Below, one piece after another: positions 11,969 to 30,323 of a stretch of DNA of 64,000 bases (its first letter is position 1; the number at the start of each line of letters is the position of its first letter). The stretch comes from Microcoleus sp. EPA2 (GTDB taxonomy: Bacteria; Cyanobacteriota; Cyanobacteriia; Cyanobacteriales; Microcoleaceae), in assembly GCA_020882975.1 (NCBI GenBank), contig JAHRFD010000003.1:1-64000 (forward strand), given 5' to 3'. The position numbers and the translations under genes are program-made. The notes beneath the pieces were generated by a model that was given only the letters and a program-made list of their open reading frames with translations, was not told the origin of the DNA and did not search any database.

Positions 11969-11998
11969 ATTTGGTGTAGAGTTTTTTCGTTTGTCCGC

Positions 11999-12054
11999 GA
12001 GTCCGCCAGGGAATGAATTCCCTGTCTCATAGCGAAAGTCGGTTGAAACCGACT
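11999..12054 (-). repeat. Dispersed AGTCCGCC...CTCATAGCGAAAGTC repeat, copy A
   Basis: Contains GAGTCCGCCAGGGA...TCCCTGTCTCATAGCGAAAGTC followed by the small inverted repeat GTCGGTTGAAACCGAC. Copies B (14502-14561), C (18914-18971) and D (19072-19133) share the core. Copy A is inverted relative to B, and the two bracket the ParA/ParB-like operon. Confidence 0.75.
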
Positions 12055-12057
12055 GAA

Positions 12058-12107
12058 TATAATGTAGTATTATAATATACTCCGTTCAAATTATTGCTGA
12101 ATTTCCC
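12058..12107 (+). promoter_or_regulatory. Operator-like direct repeat 1
   Basis: About 50 bases, nearly identical to 12173-12222, offset 115 bases. Each copy holds the imperfect dyad AGTAT-TATAAT-ATACT followed by (C/A)GTTCAAATTATT(G/A)CTGAATTTC. The distance and conservation suggest paired binding sites, such as a parS-like site or autorepression operator for the downstream operon. Inference only. Confidence 0.55.
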
Positions 12108-12128
12108 TGCTCGTCGTTTATGGATTAG

Positions 12129-12150
12129 GGCAGGCTGACATCCTCCCTCC
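12129..12150. mobile_element. Possible vestigial IS200/IS605-type end
   Basis: GGGCAGGCTGACATCCTCCC resembles the TTGACATCCTCCC end common to IS200/IS605-type elements in cyanobacteria (compare the opposite-strand GGGGAGTGTCAA at 110-124). It lies between the two direct repeats upstream of the ParA fusion. No transposase is attached, so it may be a relic or chance. Confidence 0.3.
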
Positions 12151-12172
12151 AGCGATCCTTGCCAAAACTCAT

Positions 12173-12222
12173 AATAATGTAGTATTATAATATACTCAGT
12201 TCAAATTATTACTGAATTTCAC
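12173..12222 (+). promoter_or_regulatory. Operator-like direct repeat 2 overlapping the operon promoter
   Basis: Second copy of the 50-base repeat, ending six bases before the ATG at 12228. The dyad AGTAT...ATACT (12181-12196) has TATAAT at its centre, which would make a good -10 box, so a protein bound here would block transcription. A TTGCCA at 12159 is a weak, slightly distant -35. No Shine-Dalgarno sequence is seen before the start codon. Confidence 0.5.
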
Positions 12223-12227
12223 TCCTC

Positions 12228-13562
12228 ATGAATGCCCCAGCCACTACCCTTCAAGCTGCATTACAAAGTCTTCCTCAAGGCGCTTCAGAAGCTATTGTCA
12301 GTGCTCACTTTTCACCTCAGTTTTTGCAAGCATTGGGGTTTGACTCTAATGAAGTTGTTCCCGAATATGACACTAATGGTGGTGGAATAGTTGATAAAGC
12401 AGCTAGAAAAACTATTGGAAATGATATATTTTTACATACAAAGTCTAATCCGTATCTGCTTTTAGAGCTAAAAGGAAAAGACATCAATCTTACGGAAGGT
12501 ACACCAGCGTACTTAAAAACAGTTAATCAACTTAAGCGACAGTTACTTGGTTCTAATTGCAAGTCAGCAAAATGGGGAATTATTACGAACTCATCCCATG
12601 TTCAACTGTTTAGAAAGCATGGCAAAGTAATCTTTCCAGCTACTCAATGCTTGGCTCTGGAAGTGAATAATGTTGATAAAGTTGTTGCTGAGATAAGGAA
12701 GAAGATTGAAGAAACCAGTAGAGCCTTGACAGTAACAATCTATAATAACAAGGGAGGTGTTGGCAAAACAACTACAACAGTTAACCTGGCAGGTATTTTA
12801 ACTTTTTTGGGTAAGAAAGTTTTAGTAATAGATTTTGATTTTAATCAACAAGATTTAACAAGTGCTTTGGGTATTCCTGTCAGTGATGGGCTTGTTAAAA
12901 AAGCTCTTACAGACAAGAACGTAGACCTAAAATCTGCCGTGGTTCCATATAAATTTTCTAATAAAAAATTACAACTCAGTTTTGATATTATTCCTGCTGA
13001 CAATGAACTGGCTAACGATTCTGAGGCTGAACTTCGCACGATAATAAAACGGAGTATACTGGACAAGAAGCTCGACTTTGCAAGGCAGGACTATGATTAT
13101 ATTTTGATTGATTCATCCCCGAATTGGCGTTTCATTACTCAAGTTGCGGTATATGCGGCTGATGTTATTCTTATTCCTACAAAGCACAACAACCTCTTTT
13201 CCCTAGAGAATGCGGCAAAGGCAATTCAGAAATTTATCCCTGAAATACAAGCTGCGAAAGAAGATGGAAATCCTATTGCCTTACCAATCTTTCTTAATGG
13301 AGAAAAAATTACACAACCACAGCTAGAAGTTGCTCAACAAGCAATCAACAATATTATTGTAAATGCCAAAAAAGAAGGATTTAACCTACGACCCTACTTT
13401 TACCCTAAGTACACCACTGCGAAAAAAGACTTACATATTCATCAAGTACCAAGTTACGCTAATATAGCTAATGCTGCCTTCTCACGCATTCCTGCTGTTT
13501 ATCGAGATCGTTCTGCCCATGACTACTACAAAGATTTAGCAAAGGAGTATTTTTTACAATGA
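12228..13562 (+). CDS. Nuclease-like (PD-(D/E)XK) domain fused to ParA/Soj-type ATPase
   Basis: A 444-residue two-domain protein. Residues 1-160 resemble the N-terminal nuclease domain of type I restriction R subunits: D66 (NDIFLH), then E80-L-K82 in LLLELKGKD, and WGIITNSSHVQLFRK, matching the WGxLTNGxxWxLY pattern. Residues 168-440 are a ParA/MinD ATPase with the deviant Walker A KGGVGKTTTT (175-184), Walker A' VIDFDFNQQDLT, and Walker B YDYILIDSSPN. ParA normally positions DNA with a ParB partner; here the next gene, overlapping by four bases (ATGA), encodes a ParB-like protein. A standalone chromosomal partition role, plasmid relic or anti-phage role are all possible. The gene is more AT-rich than its neighbours and is flanked by repeats, consistent with transfer. 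Confidence 0.8.
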   Translation: MNAPATTLQAALQSLPQGASEAIVSAHFSPQFLQALGFDSNEVVPEYDTNGGGIVDKAARKTIGNDIFLHTKSNPYLLLELKGKDINLTEGTPAYLKTVNQLKRQLLGSNCKSAKWGIITNSSHVQLFRKHGKVIFPATQCLALEVNNVDKVVAEIRKKIEETSRALTVTIYNNKGGVGKTTTTVNLAGILTFLGKKVLVIDFDFNQQDLTSALGIPVSDGLVKKALTDKNVDLKSAVVPYKFSNKKLQLSFDIIPADNELANDSEAELRTIIKRSILDKKLDFARQDYDYILIDSSPNWRFITQVAVYAADVILIPTKHNNLFSLENAAKAIQKFIPEIQAAKEDGNPIALPIFLNGEKITQPQLEVAQQAINNIIVNAKKEGFNLRPYFYPKYTTAKKDLHIHQVPSYANIANAAFSRIPAVYRDRSAHDYYKDLAKEYFLQ

Positions 13563-14239
13563 AAATTTCTAACATTCTTGGCAGTTTGATGCATCTCTAC
13601 ATAGATGAAATCGACCCAGGGGATGCTACTGATGCCCCTGAGTTTTTGATCAAAGCTACTGCAAAGATACTTAAACAAAAGGGTGGACGAAACTGGATTC
13701 CAGTTATCGTGAAAGAAACTGGTGAAGATAGGTATCAAGTTATTAGTAATTCCTTTGTTTATGCTGTAGCAGAGGAAGCAGGGCTAGAAAGAGTCTGGTG
13801 CATTATTGCTGACGATAATGATGATACTACAACACTCACTAAGATTCTTGCAGGTGAGGAAAAGCCTAAAATCAATCTTTCCACAGCATCCAGAGATGAA
13901 GTTATGGCAGCATTGCAATATTTGATTGAACAGCCGAACAGCGAGCTAAAATCCGTTAAACTTGCTGTAGCTACCAATCGAATTGATGAGGCTCCTCGTC
14001 AGTATTGGAAAAATTTTGAGCCAATCACCAGTCTGAAATGCGGTATTACCAAAGGCAAAAAACTTGACGCAATTAAGAGTGTATTCTATCTGACTCCCCA
14101 ATCAATGCCAGATACAATAAACGACGTGACTATTCTCAGAACAATGACTACTGTTGAATTAAAAGCAATAGCCAAGAAAAGAGGAATCGCTGGCATAACT
14201 AAGATGAAAAAAGATGCTCTGATTGAGGCTCTCAGCTAA
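13559..14239 (+). CDS. ParB-like N-domain protein with C-terminal Rho-N/SAP-like domain
   Basis: A 226-residue protein translated from an ATG overlapping the stop of the ParA fusion by four bases. Residues about 14-90 resemble a ParB/sulfiredoxin-fold domain (YIDEIDPGD, NWIPVIVKE, DRYQVISNSFVYAVAEEAGL), but the GERRxRA arginines of CTP-binding ParB are absent. The middle is unrecognised. Residues about 192-226 (TTVELKAIAKKRGI...KMKKDALIEAL) match the Rho_N helix-extended-helix motif, a nucleic-acid-binding module. So it is probably the DNA-binding partner of the nuclease-ParA protein. No terminator is visible after it. Confidence 0.75.
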   Translation: MKISNILGSLMHLYIDEIDPGDATDAPEFLIKATAKILKQKGGRNWIPVIVKETGEDRYQVISNSFVYAVAEEAGLERVWCIIADDNDDTTTLTKILAGEEKPKINLSTASRDEVMAALQYLIEQPNSELKSVKLAVATNRIDEAPRQYWKNFEPITSLKCGITKGKKLDAIKSVFYLTPQSMPDTINDVTILRTMTTVELKAIAKKRGIAGITKMKKDALIEALS

Positions 14240-14745
14240 TGGATAGCGAAAAAACTGCATTAATCCAGAATTAGAAAGCTTTCTATACCGTAAATTACCC
14301 ACGCTGGAAAATTTTAATACTTTTACTTAGTAAAAATTGAGATATATCCAATTTGGGAAATTGTTAGTCAGCATAAAGACGCGCCCTTATCTCAATCTTA
14401 GTCATTCTCGCGGCTCGCTATTTCAAGTTAAGATTTGAGCTTTGAGATTTGAGATTTGAGATTTAAAATAGGCGATTAAGTGGCTTACTGAATTGTCTTT
14501 TCAGTCCTCTTTTAGAGGACTTTCGCTATGAGACGGGGGTTTTCAACCCCCGGCGGACTTGAGGGTGTGCGAGGGGATTTCGATAGTGTTTTTGCCGCAC
14601 TTTTAATAAAATTTGAATTAAGGGCGATCCTCTTCGAGGGCTTCGCTAACGCATATTTCGAGATTTGGATTGAGGCCGATCGCACATTTTGCGCGAACCA
14701 TTATGCAGTAGTATTAATTTGTCTCTCTTTCTTTGCAAATCTTTC
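14240..14745. other. Intergenic region with dispersed repeats
   Basis: About 500 bases with no convincing gene. It contains tandem GAGATTT strings (14437-14465), repeat copy B (listed separately), and a CGATCCTCTTCGAGGGCTTCG element with a short hairpin (about 14624-14650) that looks like another dispersed cyanobacterial repeat. A 94-codon frame starting inside repeat B runs across these repeats and is not called. Confidence 0.6.
14502..14561 (+). repeat. Dispersed repeat, copy B
   Basis: AGTCCTCTTTTAGAGGACT hairpin, then TTCGCTATGAGACGGGGG...CCCCCGGCGGACTTG, which forms a second hairpin (GGGGGTT/AACCCCC). Homology to copy D extends upstream through AAGTGG-TTA and AATTG-CTTTTC. It is inverted relative to copy A. 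Confidence 0.75.
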
Positions 14746-18880: not shown

Positions 18881-18913
18881 TTTAGTTGCTATGAGAAATC
18901 TGTCGTTGGTATG

Positions 18914-18971
18914 CGAGTCCGCCAGGGGTTGAAAACCCCTGTCTCATAGCAAAAGTCGGTTGAAACCGACT
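18914..18971 (-). repeat. Dispersed repeat, copy C
   Basis: GAGTCCGCCAGGGGTT...AACCCCTGTCTCATAGCAAAAGTC followed by GTCGGTTGAAACCGAC, the same as copy A in order and orientation. Copies C and D are inverted to one another about 100 bases apart, in the 403-base gap before the OLD-like ATPase; no gene lies in that gap. Confidence 0.75.
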
Positions 18972-19071
18972 ATGGATTTGAGATTTTAGATGTTTGATAG
19001 GGAATTATTGATTTGAGATTGGAGATGGGAGATTTGAAATGAGGAACTAAGTGGTTTATTTAATTGGCTTT

Positions 19072-19133
19072 TCAGTCCTCTTTCAGAGGACTTTCGCTAT
19101 GAGACGGGGGTTTTTAACCCCCGGCGGACTTGC
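19072..19133 (+). repeat. Dispersed repeat, copy D
   Basis: AGTCCTCTTTCAGAGGACTTTCGCTATGAGACGGGGG...CCCCCGGCGGACTTG; nearly identical to copy B at 14502, including the upstream CTAAGTGG and AATTGGCTTTTC context and GAGATTTG strings. It lies about 105 bases before the OLD-like ATPase start. Confidence 0.75.
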
Positions 19134-19237
19134 GGGTTAATCGATATTCATGCCTGCGCCATCTGCGTTATAATATCTAAGTCAGATTAGCATAAATCAA
19201 CCACGATTTAGGATTTGTACATTCAAAAGGAGCGGTA

Positions 19238-20242
19238 ATGCTTAAAGAAATAGAAATCCAAAATTTTAGGTGCTTTGAGCAAATCAAAATTTCTGGGTTT
19301 GAAAGAGTCAATTTAATCGGCGGTAAAAACAATGCTGGCAAGACAGCTTTGCTAGAAGCAATTTTTCTCAATTTTGCTCCCGATGCTAGCAGTCTCGTAA
19401 TCCTAAGAGAGCTGAGAAGAGAGCCATCAAAAGCCCTAGAAGCTATGCCTGATAGAGCCTGGGACAACTTATTTTATGCACTAAAAAAAGATAGATTCAT
19501 AGTAATTATTGGCAAAGACGACAACAATAACACCGATCGATTAGAAATTAAAGTAGAAATCAATTCAATTAAAAACAAGATAAATTTTGAGTTCATGAGA
19601 AACGAAGACCAATCTACTTGGTCATTATCACCGGTTGCTGCCGGAGGTTTACTCAATTTTCGGATTTCTCTTGACGAAGTACCAATCATTCCCTCCTGGC
19701 TCAGGATTTCGGGAAAAAAACTCACAGAAGCATACGATAACGCGCGTTTGGATGACAAAGATAGCGAAGTTTTGAAAGCTTTTCAAGTTATCGATCCGGC
19801 GATAGAATCAGTAGAAAGTTTTTCAATTGGCGAACCCACGCTATACTTGAGAAGAAAAGGCGAAAAGCGTTTGCCTTTATCATTGTTTGGAGATGCCATT
19901 AACAGAGTTGCAGAAATAATCCTTAAACTGGTAAACAGCGAACACAAAATACTGCTAATTGATGAGATAGAAAATGGCATACACTATACAAATCAGCGGG
20001 AATTTTGGAGAGTGTTATTTCGGTTAGCGGTTGAACTGGATACCCAGATTTTTGCCACAACTCACAGTTTAGAGATGCTGCAAGCATTTGGGGATGTTGG
20101 TTTAGAATCTAAGCAGGAATGCAGCAGCGCATATTTTGAAATGGCAAAGAAACCCAAAACCGAGCGCATAATCGCCATCAGACGCGATTTAGAAACTTTG
20201 AATTACGCACTAGAGCATCAAAAAGGAGTGAGAGGTGAGTAA
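19238..20242 (+). CDS. OLD-like AAA ATPase (AAA15/21-type)
   Basis: A 334-residue ATPase of the RecF/OLD/ABC-like group. LKEIEIQNFRCFEQIKI is the typical opening strand; Walker A is GGKNNAGKT (28-36, the GxNNxGKT form of OLD proteins), Walker B is ILLIDEIENGIHY (about 236-248), and IFATTHSLEML is the H-loop region. It lacks its own TOPRIM nuclease, which is instead encoded by the next gene (overlap of eight bases). Such ATPase-TOPRIM pairs, including PARIS (AriA-AriB), act as abortive-infection sensors; this one is related in design. The start is preceded by AAAGGAGCGGT. The nuclease partner is damaged, so the module may be inactive. Confidence 0.85.
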   Translation: MLKEIEIQNFRCFEQIKISGFERVNLIGGKNNAGKTALLEAIFLNFAPDASSLVILRELRREPSKALEAMPDRAWDNLFYALKKDRFIVIIGKDDNNNTDRLEIKVEINSIKNKINFEFMRNEDQSTWSLSPVAAGGLLNFRISLDEVPIIPSWLRISGKKLTEAYDNARLDDKDSEVLKAFQVIDPAIESVESFSIGEPTLYLRRKGEKRLPLSLFGDAINRVAEIILKLVNSEHKILLIDEIENGIHYTNQREFWRVLFRLAVELDTQIFATTHSLEMLQAFGDVGLESKQECSSAYFEMAKKPKTERIIAIRRDLETLNYALEHQKGVRGE

Positions 20243-20637
20243 TATTGTCATAGTAGAAAGTAAAAATGATGCAATTTTTATGAAGGCAATGGTTGAGAAA
20301 CTAAACTGCGATATCCAGGTAGAACCACCTATTTATAGAGATGATTATGAAAGTTTGGAAGGCTTGAGTGAAACAAAGTTAATCACTACGTTAAAAGCTT
20401 TAGAAGCCGACTTACAAAAAAGAGATATACAAAAAATCGGGATTATTATCGATCTTGATAACGATTCAGAGCCAGAGCGGCTGAACTTGGTAAACAAATG
20501 TATAAAAACAGAAACAAGCTGGAAGTAAATGCAGTATGTCTAAATTTGATTATGTTATGGAACACAAAAAAGATATTTGGGATTGGGATAATCGTGCTCT
20601 CGATGATTTGAAGGAGTTTTTTAAATTATTTTGTTAA
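20235..20637 (+). pseudogene. DUF3226 TOPRIM-like nuclease partner, internally deleted
   Basis: The frame from 20235 encodes 97 residues of a TOPRIM-like DUF3226 protein: IVIVESKNDAIF (glutamate motif) and IGIIIDLDNDSE (DxD motif), then stops at 20526-20528. In the +1 frame the family's C-terminus follows at once: KQAGSKCSMSKFDYVM (from 20512), then DIWDWDNRALDDLKEFF, to the TAA at 20635. In intact homologues, as remembered, about 80 residues separate these parts. I infer an internal deletion plus frameshift around 20500-20512. The start overlaps the ATPase gene by eight bases, so the two were co-translated. Confidence 0.7.
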
Positions 20638-23112: not shown

Positions 23113-26100
23113 TCAGGTTGGCCCAGATGATAGTGCAAAGGTGCGATAGGCGGCTAATGCTGCTTGTTTCACGGTTTCGGGGACGATGGGAAAAGTAGTC
23201 AAAATGTAGGCGAATTCTGCTTCTGTTAAGCCGTAAAGGTGGGCGATGATGCCATCTAATTCGGCTCGCAATTGAGCCCGTTCTGTTTCATCGGTAACGC
23301 CTTCTCGGTGGGAGTTTAAGCCGACTTCTTGGGCTAATTCGTCAAATTCTGGGGTGGTGCAGATTAGTTTGGCGGCGCGTTGTACGATGTCGGTGAAGTA
23401 TTTTTCACCTGATGTCGATCGAGGTATGGGAAGTTGGTAAACATAGAAAAAGTTGATGTTTGCTGAAATTCGAGATCGAAGTGCATAATCGACAATAAAA
23501 CTATTCCAAACACTGACTAAATATAAACACTGATGATTATTAGGTGGAGTCTCACTACCTTTTGAGCAGCGCAACACTGACTGGAAGTTTTCTGCTTGAA
23601 AGTTGGGTGAGATAACTGTCGCTATCATTGTTCTTGTGTCTGTATTTCTTGCTATCTTACGAAATCCAGCTCTATAAGTCTGATAATCTAGAGTTTGACC
23701 TCTATCCTGTTCTTTTCCAAGTATCGCAGCTCTTCCTTCTGATTCCTCTATCCAATAACGCGGTTCGCAAAGAGTATGACTAAACTGCTCGATCATTTTA
23801 CCTTCATAAAGTGGCAGTCTCCCTTTCCCTGGTTCTTGCTTGAACAAATGACTGTCATTAGTCATGTGAAATTCCGCAGTTAACCGCAGATTCCATTTCC
23901 CCTCAATCTGTTCGCCCAGTAAAGGGAATTGCAGCATTTTCTCAGCAATCCGAATATCTCCCTCATTTTTAAACTCCATCACCGAGAGAGAGTCAGGAGA
24001 TAAGCGGCGAATCAGGTTAACAGAAATCTCAATACATTCATCTTGATTATTCAGAAAAGTATCCAGTTTGTCCACGCGAATCGCTTCTCGCGGATTGATG
24101 CGGAAAGCAGCTTGAAATGAGTCTGTACTTTTACCTTTCTCAAAAGTGAGCAAGCAAAACTTGAAGCGGTGATCCACTCCTTCAAAAATAAACCTTTCAT
24201 TCGACAAACCAAACAGTGCATCAATCTCAGTCTGAACAAATAACATTTCCCGCAGTTGCTTGGTTCCTAAATCAGTATAAACTCCTGAAGGAATGATGAT
24301 GCCGCACTCACCATTTGGGCGTAAGAGGTTAAAACATTGCTCTAGAAAAAGCTTGTAGAAGTTAATATCAGTACCAGACTTTTTGCCGTTGACAATGGAA
24401 ATCTGATTTTTGTACTGTTCTGCTGAACGGTAGTAAGCACTAACATGAGGAAATTCACTCAAATATTTTAACCAAGTTTCAGCAATCTCAGGATTTTGCA
24501 GAATTTTATTTTGCTCTTTTTCAAAAGTTTTGATATCCATCTTACTTTTTTTTGCTAGTTCGTTATGCTGCACAAAAAACTCTCTAGCATTTGGCTTAAA
24601 AATTTCCCAAGGTGGATTGGTAATAATCGCATCAAATCCACCACGTTCTAAAATTCTGTCAAAGTGATATCCCCAGTGAAACGGTTGCAATCTTGCAATA
24701 TCATCAATAGTTAAAACTCGTTTCTTCGGTTTCCCCGCTAGCTGCACTTCTTCATACTTAATTTTCAGCCTGGTAAACTCATCAAACAATAACTGATTTA
24801 ACTTGACTTGCGACTCCTGGTTTAACTTTTCAATATGCTGCCGCAAATTTAACAAGCGCGATTCTTGAGAAGTTCCTTCCTCTTCCCCAGACTGAAAAGC
24901 GTGTTTTTTATATAAATCAATAGACTTATTCTTGTCCGATAAAATTCCTTTGTAATTAGCAGAAGCTAAAATTTGCAGTAAATTACCTTGGCGCGAATTT
25001 CCTACAGAATCAAATCGTTCTTCATCCACTCGAATCAATCCAATTAAGGAATTACCCGCCATGATGTTAAAGTCAATATTCGGCAGCGGTTCCAATTGGC
25101 TGACATCGTGGGCCGCCGAAACTAAGGCTAAAAACAGTCGCAATTTGGCGATTTCCACTGCTTCCGGCATGATATCCACGCCGTAGAGGTTGTCGCTGAT
25201 AATCCGTTTTTTGATATAATAGTTGAGTGATGTATGCTCGGTTTCGATGGTTTTTAGTAAGTCATTGAGGTGGCGGTCATTTAAAAACTTGCTTGTACCG
25301 ATGACTTTTGAATAGATGTAAATCAGCGTTTTCATCGCTGCGACTAAAAACGCGCCGGAACCGCAGGATGGGTCTAATAATGTGAGGTTTGGGAGGATTT
25401 CTGTTAGTAGGTGGCGGCAGAGATTGGCGTCGAGATTGGTGAGGAGTTCGGTGATGGTTTCAAATGTAGGGGCGGTGCCCCCGTGCCCGCCCTGATTGGT
25501 GGTAGGGGCGGTGCCCCCGTGCCCGCCCTGATTGGTGGTAGGGGCGGTGCCCCCGTGCCCGCCCTGATTGGTGGTAGGGGCGGTGCCCCCGTGCCCGCCC
25601 TGATTGGTGGTAGGGGCGGTGCCCCCGTGCCCGCCCTGATTGGTGGCATGGGGTAGGCACGGGGGCACTACCCCTACAAAATGCTGGTTTTCTTCTGTAG
25701 GGGCGGTGCCCCCGTGCCCGCCCTCATTAATTTTATCGAGGATTAGTTTGTTGATTGTGCGATCGCACAAATATTCGGTAATCTCTGGTCTGGTATAATA
25801 AGCACCAAAGGCTTTTTGGTTAATGTATTTCTCAAAGATGTATCCCAAAACCGCCGGATTAATCTCGTTTTCCTTCCCGCCCACTGTATCGTCGAGATTC
25901 CAAGAATAGCGCGCAAATAAATCTAAGATTTTCTCAAAAGCAGCATCGGGTATAGCGATATTCGGATAATTCTGTTCGATGGGATGTTCCAGAAACAGTC
26001 CGCCATTCAAATATTTAATATTGCCAATCAGCGTTTCAACCTCAGAAGTTCGTTCGTGTTGTGGCTTAGCAAATCCCTCAAAAAACAGTGTTTTCAAGAA

Positions 26101-26820
26101 TTCCGAGTAAAATAAATCCGTTCCCCGCTGCTTGCTTTCAGCTAATTTTTCCTGCAAGTACAGCATTTTGCCGCTGTCGATAAATCCTTTGCGCTGCAAA
26201 AAATAAACAAACATCAAGCGGTTGAGTAAAACCGAAGTATACCAGCGTCTATCTGTTTCTTTGTCAATGCCGCGAATCACACTTAAAAATTCAACGTGTT
26301 GCTGTTTAAACTCTTCAAAAAACTTCTTAGTTACTCGTTCGACATCCAATCCCGCCTGCAATCTTTCGGCGACATCAATCACTGACAGGGTTTCTAATTC
26401 TGCTAATTCAACTTTTAAAGCTGTGACTTTACTCAACAGTAAATCGCAGGGTTCCCGTTTCACGTATACATGATCGCGAGGATAAAGTTTTGCACCTTCT
26501 TGCTTCACCCAATACCAGAGAGATTTGGTGCGATTTGCATCAATAAAAATCAAGATGTTTTCGCGGGATATTTGGACTATTTCGCGATAAATAGTCAGTC
26601 TTTGATTCGCATTGGGAATGTGGCCGCTAGCGGTGGTAATTTCATATACAACTACTCCTAAAAGTTGGGCGATGGCTTTTCGGGCATAAGTCTCGCCGTC
26701 TATTTCTGCGGATATAATTTTTGGGGATGATGGATTGTCCCAACCGAGTTGTTGGACGAATAGTTTGTTGAATTCAAAGTCTTGGAGGAGTTGGCGCGAT
26801 TCTGTAAGTGTTTGCGGCAT
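23113..26820 (-). CDS. Eco57I-type N6-adenine DNA methyltransferase (R-M-like)
   Basis: A 1235-residue protein. The N-terminal 370 residues contain YPRDHVYVKREPCDLL, DRRWYTSVLLNRLMFVYFLQ and NPAVLGYIFEKYINQKAFGAYYT, all typical of large Eco57I-type modification enzymes. Motif I is LLDPSCGSGAFLVAAM (about 478-493) and motif IV is NPPWEIFKP (about 735), so it should methylate adenine. A C-terminal target-recognition part follows. Start: ATG 26820 (MPQTLTESRQ) is preferred to the frame's upstream start at 26886. The region just before motif I carries a repetitive insertion (see repeat 25466-25725). The helicase gene lies upstream on the same strand, a probable defence operon. Confidence 0.85.
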   Translation of the reverse strand: MPQTLTESRQLLQDFEFNKLFVQQLGWDNPSSPKIISAEIDGETYARKAIAQLLGVVVYEITTASGHIPNANQRLTIYREIVQISRENILIFIDANRTKSLWYWVKQEGAKLYPRDHVYVKREPCDLLLSKVTALKVELAELETLSVIDVAERLQAGLDVERVTKKFFEEFKQQHVEFLSVIRGIDKETDRRWYTSVLLNRLMFVYFLQRKGFIDSGKMLYLQEKLAESKQRGTDLFYSEFLKTLFFEGFAKPQHERTSEVETLIGNIKYLNGGLFLEHPIEQNYPNIAIPDAAFEKILDLFARYSWNLDDTVGGKENEINPAVLGYIFEKYINQKAFGAYYTRPEITEYLCDRTINKLILDKINEGGHGGTAPTEENQHFVGVVPPCLPHATNQGGHGGTAPTTNQGGHGGTAPTTNQGGHGGTAPTTNQGGHGGTAPTTNQGGHGGTAPTFETITELLTNLDANLCRHLLTEILPNLTLLDPSCGSGAFLVAAMKTLIYIYSKVIGTSKFLNDRHLNDLLKTIETEHTSLNYYIKKRIISDNLYGVDIMPEAVEIAKLRLFLALVSAAHDVSQLEPLPNIDFNIMAGNSLIGLIRVDEERFDSVGNSRQGNLLQILASANYKGILSDKNKSIDLYKKHAFQSGEEEGTSQESRLLNLRQHIEKLNQESQVKLNQLLFDEFTRLKIKYEEVQLAGKPKKRVLTIDDIARLQPFHWGYHFDRILERGGFDAIITNPPWEIFKPNAREFFVQHNELAKKSKMDIKTFEKEQNKILQNPEIAETWLKYLSEFPHVSAYYRSAEQYKNQISIVNGKKSGTDINFYKLFLEQCFNLLRPNGECGIIIPSGVYTDLGTKQLREMLFVQTEIDALFGLSNERFIFEGVDHRFKFCLLTFEKGKSTDSFQAAFRINPREAIRVDKLDTFLNNQDECIEISVNLIRRLSPDSLSVMEFKNEGDIRIAEKMLQFPLLGEQIEGKWNLRLTAEFHMTNDSHLFKQEPGKGRLPLYEGKMIEQFSHTLCEPRYWIEESEGRAAILGKEQDRGQTLDYQTYRAGFRKIARNTDTRTMIATVISPNFQAENFQSVLRCSKGSETPPNNHQCLYLVSVWNSFIVDYALRSRISANINFFYVYQLPIPRSTSGEKYFTDIVQRAAKLICTTPEFDELAQEVGLNSHREGVTDETERAQLRAELDGIIAHLYGLTEAEFAYILTTFPIVPETVKQAALAAYRTFALSSGPT
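25466..25725 (-). repeat. 36-bp tandem repeat expanded in frame in the methyltransferase
   Basis: Five copies of the core GTAGGGGCGGTGCCCCCGTG (25466-25494, then four exact 36-base units at 25495-25638), one inverted relative (about 25651-25680) and one more direct copy (25696-25725). The unit is a multiple of three and encodes the 12-residue block TNQGGHGGTAPT. The core is a GC-rich palindrome of the GTAGGGGC family also seen at 7.0-7.1 kb and 40.4 kb. Confidence 0.9.
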
Positions 26821-26850
26821 GGTTATATATGAAGGAAGAAGCGGGTAGTC

Positions 26851-26914
26851 AGAAACCGGGTTTTTTCCTAGATTCAAGGCTATCAACGAGTATTATCGCA
26901 AAAACCCGGTTTCT
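26851..26914. repeat. AGAAACCGGGTTTTT palindromic element
   Basis: AGAAACCGGGTTTTT (26851-26865) and AAAAACCCGGTTTCT (26900-26914) are perfect 15-bp arms around 34 bases, in the gap between helicase and methyltransferase genes. An RNA hairpin here with a T run could attenuate read-through into the methyltransferase. Confidence 0.75.
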
Positions 26915-26930
26915 CGAATCCCAATAGTTA

Positions 26931-29900
26931 TTATATCTCCTGAAATAAGCCTAAAGAACAAATAATCATCGGTTCCCGTTTTTCTCCATCTTCACTAACT
27001 ATACAAAAACGGTCGTCCATTCTTAATGCTACGACTAATTCTGCTAAAGCCCGATCGCCAATACCGCTTTTTAATTGCCGATTTAACGTGTCAATTGCCG
27101 ACTGGCGCAGGGGATAGCGGTAAATTTCATCAATGGCTTTTGACAATTCCTCGGATGCGAATATTGTACCACGCATGGACTGCGCGTAACTCTTCAAACG
27201 TTCATAAGTTCGGAATCTCGCCCCGGAAGACCGGCCCAATTGTCCGCCCGCATTTGACTCTTCTTCTGCTATCAATTCTGCACCTTTTGTGACCAATTCG
27301 TGATGTTGTTTGTCTCTGGGGATTGCTGGTGTGGATTCGTCGCAGGCGGCAATTTTTAATATGGCTAGTTGCGATTGACTGACGCTGTTTCCAGCGCGAT
27401 CGACCCAAATTAAGGAATCATTTCCCTCGGCGGTTTTCATGTACAATAAAACTCCTTCGGGCTGCAATGGTTCTGGTGTATGATTGCGAGTTGAGTAAAC
27501 TACATTTGGCAGGGATTCAATGGTTTTTTTCAAAGTTGGATTTTTGTCTGTCGCATTTTTCCAAATCTGAAAAGCTTCGGATGTTAAGTCAACTTCGGCA
27601 TCTTCTTCTCCATCTAAAATGCCGGATTTTTCATTGTAAATATCCAGAATGACTTGGGGTGAATCATCTTCAAAAAATGTCTCGTCAGTTCCCACAACTT
27701 CGGCATTCTCTTGTAACCTTCGGCGTAGTCTTTCGCGCAGGTTGATAATCCGCTCTACTCCTTCCTCTGGCAAAAATGAATAGCACAAAATCTGTTCTGC
27801 TTGCTGTCCGATTCTGTCTACTCTTCCGGCCCGCTGAATCAACCGAATGATTGCCCAAGGTAAGTCATAATTAACGATTATCGCACTGTCTTGTAAGTTG
27901 TGACCTTCACTCAGAATATCGGTGGCAATTAAGACGCGCAATTCTTGTTCTGGTGAGATTTTTTCACGCTTACCGTTGCTAGTTGGACTAAACCGAAATG
28001 TGAGTTCGGTGGGGTCTTTTGATTTGCCGGTCACTGATGCAACGCCCGCAATATTTAACTTGGTTAAGTTGTCGGTTAGATAGCGGACTGTATCGGCAAA
28101 TTGAGTAAAAATTAATACTTTCTCGTGGGGGTGAGTTTCTGTCAGCAATCTCACCAAAGCAGCTAATTTTTCATCGGGTTGAGAATGCCAGACGCTGCAA
28201 GTTTGCAATACTTCAATTAAAGAGCGGGCATCTGCTAGTAAATCCCGTTTTAACTTCTTGCTATCAAAAAAGTCGGATTTGAGCCATTTAAATCTGCGCT
28301 GGTAGCGCGTTTGATATTCTTGATAAACTAATTCTGCCCGCTGTTTAAAACTTTTTTCGTCTAACTGCAATTCCGCTTCGATATCTGAAAGCTCCCCCGA
28401 TTCGTCTTCGATTTCTTCGGTATCAAAATTGCTCATCACAACTGCATCAGCATCTTCGTCGCTGTTGCGGGTATCCAATAATTCTGCATCCTGAGTGCCG
28501 ATCGGGATATCGGAGTTTTGGTCGATCGCATATAAGTAGATAAAATTCCGCAGGATGTGCCGCTCGATCGACTGAATAAAGGCACTGCCGCTGCTTTCTA
28601 GCCGTTTAAACAGATTTGTTCGCGAAAATCCCATTAACCGGCGACCCCCACGGAATAGGGCATTTAACTGTCGCTGCTCTGCTTCAGTCGGCTGTTGTTT
28701 GGGTTTTTTGGCGATGTAATTTCCGAGCCCGTAACGGGGCAGATTTAGGGCGTTGATGACTTCGACAATTTCCTCAAAGTCAAGCTGGGAGTTAGTTGTG
28801 GAAGTTTCAGAGGAAAACTTAATGGTTCTGGGAAGGCGCGAGGGAAAATAGGAGCGCGTGCGATCGGCAAATTCTAGATATTTGCGATCGGTTTCTGCAT
28901 GAGTTTTCGCATAATTCTCTTTAATAAACGAGCGAGTTCTCCTCACCATGTAGCGCTTCATCAAGTCTCGCCAATCATCAGGATGTTCGCTCTTTTCAAA
29001 AGCAGCTAAAGAGCGCACGGAACATTGATGCCGCTTCATAAATTCTAACTCTCCTTGACTACCGCCGCCCAATTGATTTAGCAAAGCTTCCGGGCGTAAT
29101 CCTAAATTTTGGTCTTCAGGAACAAACAGTCGCAATTGAGCAGATAAATCTAAATAGGTTTTGTTGTAGGGAGTTGCTGAAAGTAGAATACATTTACTTT
29201 CATTGATGGCAATATATTCTTGAATGGCTCGGTATCGCTTACCTTCGCGGTTTCTGAGGTTGTGACTTTCATCGATTAAGACAACTCGATAGCGGCGCAA
29301 TTCCGGTAATTCTTGCTGCACCCGACTGATGGATAAGACTTTTGCCAGCAGGCGATATTTATCTGCATATTCCTGCCACATTTTGACTAAGTTTTTCGGA
29401 CAAATAATCAGGGTTTCTAAGGAACAATCTTCTTGGAGAATTTTGGCGATCGCCGTACCGACTAAAGTTTTGCCCAAACCTACCACATCGCCAATAATCA
29501 CGCCTCCCCGTTTGGTAATGTGACGGGCTGCTAGCTTAACGGCTTCTTCTTGAAACTGAAATAAACCCACTAAATCGCGGGGAATCTGAAATTCAGCAAT
29601 ACCTGCGATCGCCTCGCGGGACAAATGATAGACAATGTTGAGATAGATGTGATAGGGTGGAATTAGTTCGGTTCTCGCCCAACTGCGATCGAGAATTTCT
29701 GCAAGTTCTTGAGAAATATCAATACAACCGTATTCTTCCCAGCGATCGTCAAACCATTTTTGCAGTTTATTGCAAGCATCAAAATCTAAGATATCAATAT
29801 TCAATTCCCCTTGTTTTGACAGTCCCGATAAAGTCAGGTTGCTGCTGCCCAGAAAACCGACGATCGGACTGTTTGGATCGTGACGGTGAACGAGATATAG

Positions 29901-30323
29901 TTTAGCGTGTAGGGGATAAGCTAAAAATAATTTAACAATGACTTTTCCAGTTTTAATCTGATAGCTTAACCTGCGTAATCCTGCTTCATCCATATCGTTG
30001 GGAGCGCCAATGGTTAACTGTTGGCGAAATTCCTCAGCCATCCGTTTTTTGAGTCGAATAATGGCACTATTGTCAATCCCTCGGTGATGGGAAATTAGAC
30101 TAAAACTAGCATTCAATTCATCGGATGGCAAACTTTGCATTCCCACCAAAAGGCGACAGCAGGCTCCTTGATTTCCCATGTATGCTTCGATTAAATCGCC
30201 AATGCTCCGCCATCCCCGGAGGTTGAAATAGCCAACGCAAAAATCGGCACGATAGGAGAGTTTAATGGTTTCTCGTAATGCTGGTAGCAGAGATAGTTCG
30301 ATGTTGTCAAAAATGCGCGGCAC
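26931..30323 (-). CDS. PLD-domain nuclease / SNF2 helicase fusion
   Basis: A 1130-residue protein. The N-terminal 200 residues form a phospholipase-D-like domain with one HKD-type motif (HAKLYLVHR, about 137-145, then GFLGSSNLTLSG). The rest is a SNF2-family helicase: GDVVGLGKTLVG (Walker A, about 277), VLIDESHNL (motif II), ILLSATPYNKT (motif III), then VLIFTQFADTVRYL, SEGHNLQDS and IQRAGRVDRIGQ (motifs IV-VI). PLD-helicase fusions cut or translocate on DNA in several bacterial defence systems, including DISARM-like ones. It is the upstream gene of an adenine methyltransferase; together they look like a two-gene R-M-like system. A C-terminal tail of about 260 residues is unrecognised. Confidence 0.87.
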   Translation of the reverse strand: MPRIFDNIELSLLPALRETIKLSYRADFCVGYFNLRGWRSIGDLIEAYMGNQGACCRLLVGMQSLPSDELNASFSLISHHRGIDNSAIIRLKKRMAEEFRQQLTIGAPNDMDEAGLRRLSYQIKTGKVIVKLFLAYPLHAKLYLVHRHDPNSPIVGFLGSSNLTLSGLSKQGELNIDILDFDACNKLQKWFDDRWEEYGCIDISQELAEILDRSWARTELIPPYHIYLNIVYHLSREAIAGIAEFQIPRDLVGLFQFQEEAVKLAARHITKRGGVIIGDVVGLGKTLVGTAIAKILQEDCSLETLIICPKNLVKMWQEYADKYRLLAKVLSISRVQQELPELRRYRVVLIDESHNLRNREGKRYRAIQEYIAINESKCILLSATPYNKTYLDLSAQLRLFVPEDQNLGLRPEALLNQLGGGSQGELEFMKRHQCSVRSLAAFEKSEHPDDWRDLMKRYMVRRTRSFIKENYAKTHAETDRKYLEFADRTRSYFPSRLPRTIKFSSETSTTNSQLDFEEIVEVINALNLPRYGLGNYIAKKPKQQPTEAEQRQLNALFRGGRRLMGFSRTNLFKRLESSGSAFIQSIERHILRNFIYLYAIDQNSDIPIGTQDAELLDTRNSDEDADAVVMSNFDTEEIEDESGELSDIEAELQLDEKSFKQRAELVYQEYQTRYQRRFKWLKSDFFDSKKLKRDLLADARSLIEVLQTCSVWHSQPDEKLAALVRLLTETHPHEKVLIFTQFADTVRYLTDNLTKLNIAGVASVTGKSKDPTELTFRFSPTSNGKREKISPEQELRVLIATDILSEGHNLQDSAIIVNYDLPWAIIRLIQRAGRVDRIGQQAEQILCYSFLPEEGVERIINLRERLRRRLQENAEVVGTDETFFEDDSPQVILDIYNEKSGILDGEEDAEVDLTSEAFQIWKNATDKNPTLKKTIESLPNVVYSTRNHTPEPLQPEGVLLYMKTAEGNDSLIWVDRAGNSVSQSQLAILKIAACDESTPAIPRDKQHHELVTKGAELIAEEESNAGGQLGRSSGARFRTYERLKSYAQSMRGTIFASEELSKAIDEIYRYPLRQSAIDTLNRQLKSGIGDRALAELVVALRMDDRFCIVSEDGEKREPMIICSLGLFQEI

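Follow-up and report, generated by a model that had tools for sequence, protein, structure and literature searches.

Nuclease-fold-ParA fusion and its ParB-like partner

A two-gene operon on the + strand was confirmed in Microcoleus sp. EPA2, within positions 1 to 64,000 of contig JAHRFD010000003.1 (this whole stretch of 64,000 nucleotides is referred to here as the window). Open reading frame (ORF) A of this operon encodes an HSDR_N-type PD-(D/E)XK nuclease-fold domain joined to an intact ParA ATPase, and ORF B encodes a ParB-like protein (Table 1). On the evidence of sequence comparison, the operon is an accessory copy of a kind disseminated among replicons, and we lean towards a Par-type replicon-maintenance module (segregation or positioning) as its main role. 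An earlier, sequence-only reading of the same DNA had recognized the nuclease-ParA fusion, the adjacent ParB-like partner and their four-base overlap; the overlap (ATGA) agreed with the ORF coordinates, and the fusion and pairing held across the family. Comparison of homologous sequences established the architecture, the retained catalytic residues, the retained gene order and purifying selection, with ratios of nonsynonymous to synonymous substitution rates (dN/dS) below 1 in every pair compared, for the N-terminal domain (N-domain), the ParA domain and the partner alike.

Table 1. Features of the operon and its upstream region in the window
Feature	Position	Strand	Description
ORF A	12228-13562	+	444 aa; N-terminal nuclease-fold domain joined to intact ParA
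HSDR_N-type PD-(D/E)XK nuclease-fold domain of ORF A	12228-12713	+	residues 1-162; candidate catalytic residues E21, D56, E80, K82
ParA ATPase domain of ORF A	12714-13562	+	residues about 163-444; KGGVGKTTTT; invariant K175, D295
ORF B	13559-14239	+	226 aa; ParB/Srx-fold, middle helical (helix-hairpin-helix-like) and Rho_N domains
ParB/Srx-fold N-terminal domain of ORF B	13559-13867	+	about residues 1-103; no GERR-type arginines
Middle helical domain of ORF B	13868-14101	+	about residues 104-181; helix-hairpin-helix-like by pattern
Rho_N/SAP-type C-terminal domain of ORF B	14135-14236	+	residues 193-226
Segment directly upstream of ORF A	12167-12227	+	alike in two relatives
Second copy of upstream segment	12052-12112	+	61 bp; 89% identity to 12167-12227

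The nuclease fold was undetected when full-length ORF A of the window was compared with Pfam at E values of up to 1; the isolated N-domain matched HSDR_N_2 with an E value of 1.9e-4 and 21.9 bits, short of the 25-bit cut-off. Family-wide, the same profile matched 49 of 58 N-domains taken in isolation and 27 of 44 members at full length, and a profile search of the PDB with the N-domain returned nothing significant (best E value, 0.01). In a first alignment of 48 proteins, E80 was found in all 48, K82 in 47, D56 in 46 of the 47 with a residue present and D66 in 35; after removal of four that were truncated or duplicates, 44 of these proteins made up alignment A1, and alignment A2 omitted three. 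The full set of E21, D56, E80 and K82 was retained in 145 of 148 full-length homologues (71 accessory and 77 core copies), counts that include many close relatives and are therefore not counts of independent events; five duplicate loci were omitted from this set and from later counts, which do not include L001 to L030 and L079 to L108. The same four residues and N121 were invariant across 58 diverse N-domains. Position 66 was D in 48 of the 71 accessory copies and in none of the 77 core copies. D66, named in the sequence-only reading as catalytic together with E80 and K82, was accordingly rejected as poorly conserved; the likely catalytic Asp is the conserved D56, and the other two residues stood. 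Despite this correction, the wider conservation strengthened the nuclease reading, and the fused N-domain is predicted with good confidence to be an active nuclease.

The exceptions to the four-residue set were two N-terminally truncated proteins and L066 (9338-10717), the only full-length member in which an N-domain without the catalytic residues, the type of homologue that the sequence-only reading had considered damaging to its proposal, was found. L066 is otherwise intact, with G at the D56 equivalent and T at the K82 equivalent; its dN/dS values against three relatives were 0.32 to 0.45 for the N-domain and 0.20 to 0.35 for the ParA domain, indicating that both domains are under selection.

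The N-domain resembles HSDR_N and HSDR_N_2, the N terminus of the type I restriction R subunit, in its profile matches and in its E, D and ExK residues. Unlike that subunit, in which a superfamily 2 helicase motor is expected after the nuclease domain, ORF A has no such motor, the rest of the protein being ParA, and the operon lacks the methylase and specificity genes of type I restriction. The ParA domain matched AAA_31 (E value, 2.2e-34), and its deviant Walker A and Walker B motifs are both present, as in canonical ParABS; the ATPase thus proved as intact as the sequence-only reading had stated from its KGGVGKTTTT motif. VIA-align reached only the ParA part of ORF A. Both proteins of the operon were modelled confidently, with mean predicted local distance difference test scores of 93.6 and 91.2 in the predicted structures.

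As had also been proposed, ORF B has a ParB-like N-terminal domain without the GERRxRA arginines and ends in a Rho_N domain: its ParB_N match was below threshold (20.7 bits versus 26.3), and its Rho_N match of 34.2 bits was above the cut-off. N64 was invariant in 45 aligned partners, and at E values of up to 0.1, ParB_N was matched by 39 and Rho_N by 13 of 45. The middle domain, modelled as helices in the predicted structure, was duplicated in 23 of 47 partner homologues found by BLAST. Its assignment as helix-hairpin-helix (HhH) is offered as a lead, because its basis is a sequence pattern and one partner member (read as L074) that matches Pfam HHH families. No helix-turn-helix (HTH) family was among the 25 listed of the 31 Pfam families matching the partners. 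Of 151 ORFs lying downstream, including one in L116 that does not encode a partner, none had a match to GE[RNK]R or to the ParA-activating LG(R/K)GL motif; both GERR-type and LG(R/K)GL motifs were present in a canonical ParB of Shinella that was encountered incidentally. A PDB profile search with ORF B returned nothing significant (best E value, 0.031).

A ParB-like gene lay no more than 900 bp downstream at 152 of 158 loci (accessory, 67 of 71; core, 76 of 77; nuclease free, 9 of 10), the two core partner profiles being derived partly from the same genes that were counted. Counted in the nuclease-free group are L217, a fragment of a gene that is split, and L218, whose N terminus differs; several forms retain ParA and the partner but have no nuclease domain. 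The adjacency on which the sequence-only reading had been prepared to rely is therefore conserved.

Other arrangements were also observed. A full nuclease-ParA gene and a nuclease-free ParA gene stand in tandem at L160 (3330-5943), and L218 (5183-7252) holds a second-type core pair that is in pieces in this genome. In two Microcoleus genomes, a second ParB-like gene, assigned by eye to the other core type and without a ParA of its own, follows the core pair (L110, 6872-8011; L109, 7382-8470).

Accessory and core clades

In a tree of 160 ParA-domain rows, from which nine same-genus core rows were omitted, the 71 accessory proteins lay on one side of a branch with a support of 86. Core copies formed a group of 19 rows (support, 99) and a 56-row group that included nuclease-free forms (support, 100); these two related clades are chromosomal. 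The evidence linking accessory with core N-domains consists of profile scores between about 15 and 42 bits and of the residues that they share. The nuclease-free forms required six changes on the tree, at least three of them on well-supported branches, a pattern that fits repeated loss, or else exchange.

By sequence, the window copy is a member of an accessory clade whose patchy distribution takes in chromosomes, plasmids and one viral contig. A match at an E value of 1.4e-84 or better was present in 36 of 98 relatives and in 10 of 29 genomes of the genus. Contigs of at least 2.4 Mb carried accessory copies in 17 cases (one of them truncated), and, among the matches listed, such copies were also on seven cyanobacterial plasmid records with a cover of at least 80%, two of which represent the same plasmid in two strains. 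The plasmids inspected were three of Nostoc sp. UHCC 0870, ABRG53g, pPg_01 and pLBA. Among 154 loci checked, one 58-kb viral contig, listed under the two identifiers L257 and L381, carried both domains and the pair; the 80 best of the more than 400 relatives in each viral scan were retained. On viral contig L363, a 352-aa ORF (1572-2630) matched the core N-domain profile with 46 bits.

The core profile, at an E value of 1e-45 or better, was found in 69 of the 98 relatives and in 28 of the 29 genus genomes, some of the copies being fragmentary, split or without the nuclease. A wider sample gave matches to it at an E value of 1e-30 in 90 of 292 genomes, with other ParA proteins counted in. Canonical ParB (TIGR00180) was matched in 41 of the 98 relatives (40 above the cut-off), 9 of the 29 genus genomes and 52 of the 292 phylum genomes. 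Two single-contig genomes (G018 and G020) had no canonical ParB match, and in G011 canonical ParB was confined to contigs 2, 5 and 6, with the core copy on contig 1; the genome of the window itself holds both a core copy and a canonical ParB. No noncyanobacterial homologue with the N-domain was found among the matches listed in the plasmid and phage searches, and an insensitive single-protein scan of genome contigs returned two loci, both cyanobacterial. A split nuclease gene of Euhalothece pEu4 and a Shinella homologue were considered and rejected, neither having an N-domain match.

Proposed replicon maintenance and competing explanations

Type I ParA/ParB systems (Soj/Spo0J and plasmid ParABS), which are found on chromosomes and plasmids, likewise combine a ParA with intact Walker motifs and a downstream ParB-fold partner. 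The present operon differs from them in the PD-(D/E)XK domain joined to ParA, in a partner that has HhH-like and Rho_N/SAP domains with no recognized HTH and that lacks the GERR-type and LG(R/K)GL motifs, and in that no parS was found. PadC, KorB and sulfiredoxin, which are ParB/Srx-fold proteins outside segregation, share the fold of the N-terminal domain of ORF B, and Osa is a further protein of this kind. DndB is another, according to the available part of PMC10853773, which also refers to a paper on conjugative-plasmid conflict. Unlike such proteins, the partner described here is paired with ParA at nearly all loci (152 of 158). In the available part of a 2025 survey of the ParB fold (PMC12704722), a DUF3850 fusion is the only one consistently next to parA. 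A nuclease-ParA fusion was not met in the available parts of PMC12704722, PMC10853773, PMC5512222, PMC6328274, PMC10241942 and PMC7766704, and no description of the nuclease-ParA/ParB-like pair was found in the literature searched, which was mostly outside subscription journals, so that an earlier account may exist.

Related pairs on cyanobacterial chromosomes and plasmids make DNA maintenance likelier than an antivirus role; the nuclease-free forms with ParA and partner, the occurrence of the pair on plasmids and on a viral contig, and the resident chromosomal relative favor maintenance as the principal role, with the nuclease as an added activity. In such a module, ATP-bound ParA dimers would, as their fold suggests, coat DNA nonspecifically, and the ParB-like partner would contact DNA through its HhH-like and Rho_N/SAP domains rather than as an HTH clamp loaded with CTP, acting as an adaptor that drives the ATPase cycle. 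The HSDR_N-type domain would be a working endonuclease or nickase taken to DNA by ParA and perhaps turned on by ParA dimerization, so that positioning by the complex could be accompanied by nicking or cutting of the DNA, which might serve to resolve joined replicon copies or to start recombination between copies. Each of these biochemical steps is one that we infer.

Several results weigh against a maintenance role. Canonical ParA proteins are not represented in the tree, in which 14 other ParA rows group with the core, so that a single origin of the fusion is not shown. In Nostoc sp. UHCC 0870, each of the three plasmids with the operon has a further ParA-type gene, and ParM is also encoded on two of them; the operon is thus not the sole maintenance system there. 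No tandem iteron array was present near the operon in seven loci, and no family-wide shared repeat was found within 450 bp upstream, leaving no shared centromere or parS candidate. The partner was undetected in 5 of the 148 full-length members, including four related accessory nuclease-ParA copies (L116, L117, L118 and L137); the separation of ParA from its neighbor, which the sequence-only reading had regarded as contrary evidence, therefore occurs in a minority. Finally, given the 151 downstream ORFs without GERR-type and LG(R/K)GL motifs, a canonical ParABS cycle cannot be assumed.

The sequence-only reading had proposed a ParA-guided nuclease system or defense module. In a defense or plasmid-conflict system, ParA would coat incoming or competing DNA, the nuclease would destroy it and the ParB/Srx-like partner would act as the sensor, and such a role is consistent with the conserved nuclease residues, the patchy spread of accessory copies among the 98 relatives and within the genus, and a variable site downstream of topA, where operon DNA is present in 3 of 28 genus genomes and, as judged by eye, is accompanied by HNH-like genes in two relatives. 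The available parts of PMC10853773 and PMC5512222 also propose ParB/Srx proteins as NTPases or nucleases in conflicts. The PADLOC candidate PDC-M28B, a name not found in the literature searched, matched all 44 family members scanned at E values of up to 0.01 (best, 8.7e-10); its match to ORF A was weak, at 36 bits over residues 100 to 214, and stopped in the P-loop region, and ORF B had no PADLOC match. Among the neighbors scanned (120 of 509 proteins for accessory copies and 105 of 238 for core copies), 93 PADLOC models, many of them generic, matched at least one accessory neighbor, compared with 50 for core neighbors. However, no PADLOC family matched more than two neighbors in either set, and the 25 commonest Pfam families of accessory neighbors were those of mixed ordinary genes; in this small sample, no defense family recurred, and a defense island around accessory copies was not supported. 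Nearly every genome of the genus has relatives of the pair on the chromosome, and a fatty acid desaturase was found in 18 of the 105 core neighbors (many from one genus), as for a resident pair. With nuclease-free forms persisting as well, the defense proposal was not supported, and we consider it unlikely.

A recombination or repair nuclease for multicopy replicons, in which ParA and the partner would position cutting at joints or for gene conversion without partition, appears quite unlikely. The nuclease residues are retained in both core and accessory clades, a review that cites work on polyploid cyanobacterial chromosomes states that classical ParA/B/S is lacking (PMC7766704, available part), and Rad52-like genes were noted close to the operon by annotation on a plasmid and by eye on a viral contig. 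These two Rad52 neighbors are the only ones noticed and were counted without a control, and since nuclease-free forms keep ParA and the partner, the nuclease cannot be the whole function. An N-domain that binds DNA or metal without cutting would accommodate L066, in which both domains are under selection without the D56 and K82 equivalents, and the several core forms with no N-domain; retention of all four residues in nearly all full-length homologues is a joint need not expected of a binding domain, and this alternative is very improbable.

Replicon maintenance, the reading that we prefer, bears on chromosome segregation in cyanobacteria. According to the available part of a review (PMC7766704), cyanobacteria are without a classical ParA/B/S segregation mechanism; the review cites work on polyploid, multicopy cyanobacterial chromosomes, and among its references is a 2018 study of a ParA-like protein influencing chromosome distribution in Synechococcus elongatus. 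For the sharing out of numerous chromosome copies, the ParA/ParB-like pair of the chromosome, in which the nuclease site is conserved and whose profile is present in all but one of the genus genomes, is a concrete and testable candidate. As a tentative and rather doubtful extension, chromosomes without canonical ParABS might be kept by a nuclease-armed Par system with its own PD-(D/E)XK domain and a CTP-independent partner, which would cut while sharing or equalizing copies, plasmids and phages having taken copies for their own upkeep. In addition, positioning and cleavage of DNA would be coupled in a novel manner if a partition ATPase carries a covalently attached nuclease.

Flanking sequences and neighboring genes

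The guanine-plus-cytosine contents of ORF A and ORF B were 0.373 and 0.395, compared with 0.515 for topA and 0.444 for the whole window, in agreement with the earlier description of the operon as more AT-rich than topA. Of 28 genus genomes searched, 3 had operon DNA downstream of topA and the other 25 had none in the stretch examined, which was cut short in several. The duplication of the segment upstream of ORF A was not present in the two closest relatives. The approximately 60 bp between the 61-bp copies match the end of a gene of which two relatives have an intact version. An HNH-like gene (by eye) lies between topA and the operon in the two closest relatives, and the window keeps only its last approximately 60 bp. 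Pairs of small HNH-like genes, also recognized by eye, flank the operon in two Microcoleus loci (L037, 9255-9943 and 12054-12832; L039, 8252-9018 and 11080-11768).

The sequence-only reading had noted repeats flanking the operon. Short dispersed repeats do occur near it, one pair being inverted around it (12020-12040 and 14518-14538), but they are not specific to it: similar short repeats adjoin topA in relatives without the operon, and the flanking repeats were rejected as element ends. Dispersed, partly palindromic repeats were seen in the window at 11995-12060, 14491-14559, 18896-18980 and 19062-19138. Promoter-like matches upstream of ORF A were as numerous as in shuffled sequence, and an Rfam search gave no match. 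Loose repeats occurred at single loci, namely, three 17-nt copies at L031 and a 39-nt inverted repeat with a palindrome at L034. An iteron centromere upstream of L077 and L075 was rejected, the repeats appearing by eye to lie inside a His-rich coding region.

Elsewhere in the window, an AAA ATPase gene is followed by a small ORF that may encode a TOPRIM-like partner (19238-20528), a pair also seen by eye in G011. Two minus-strand ORFs of 1257 and 1130 aa (23113-30323) resemble, by eye, a methylase-helicase restriction pair.
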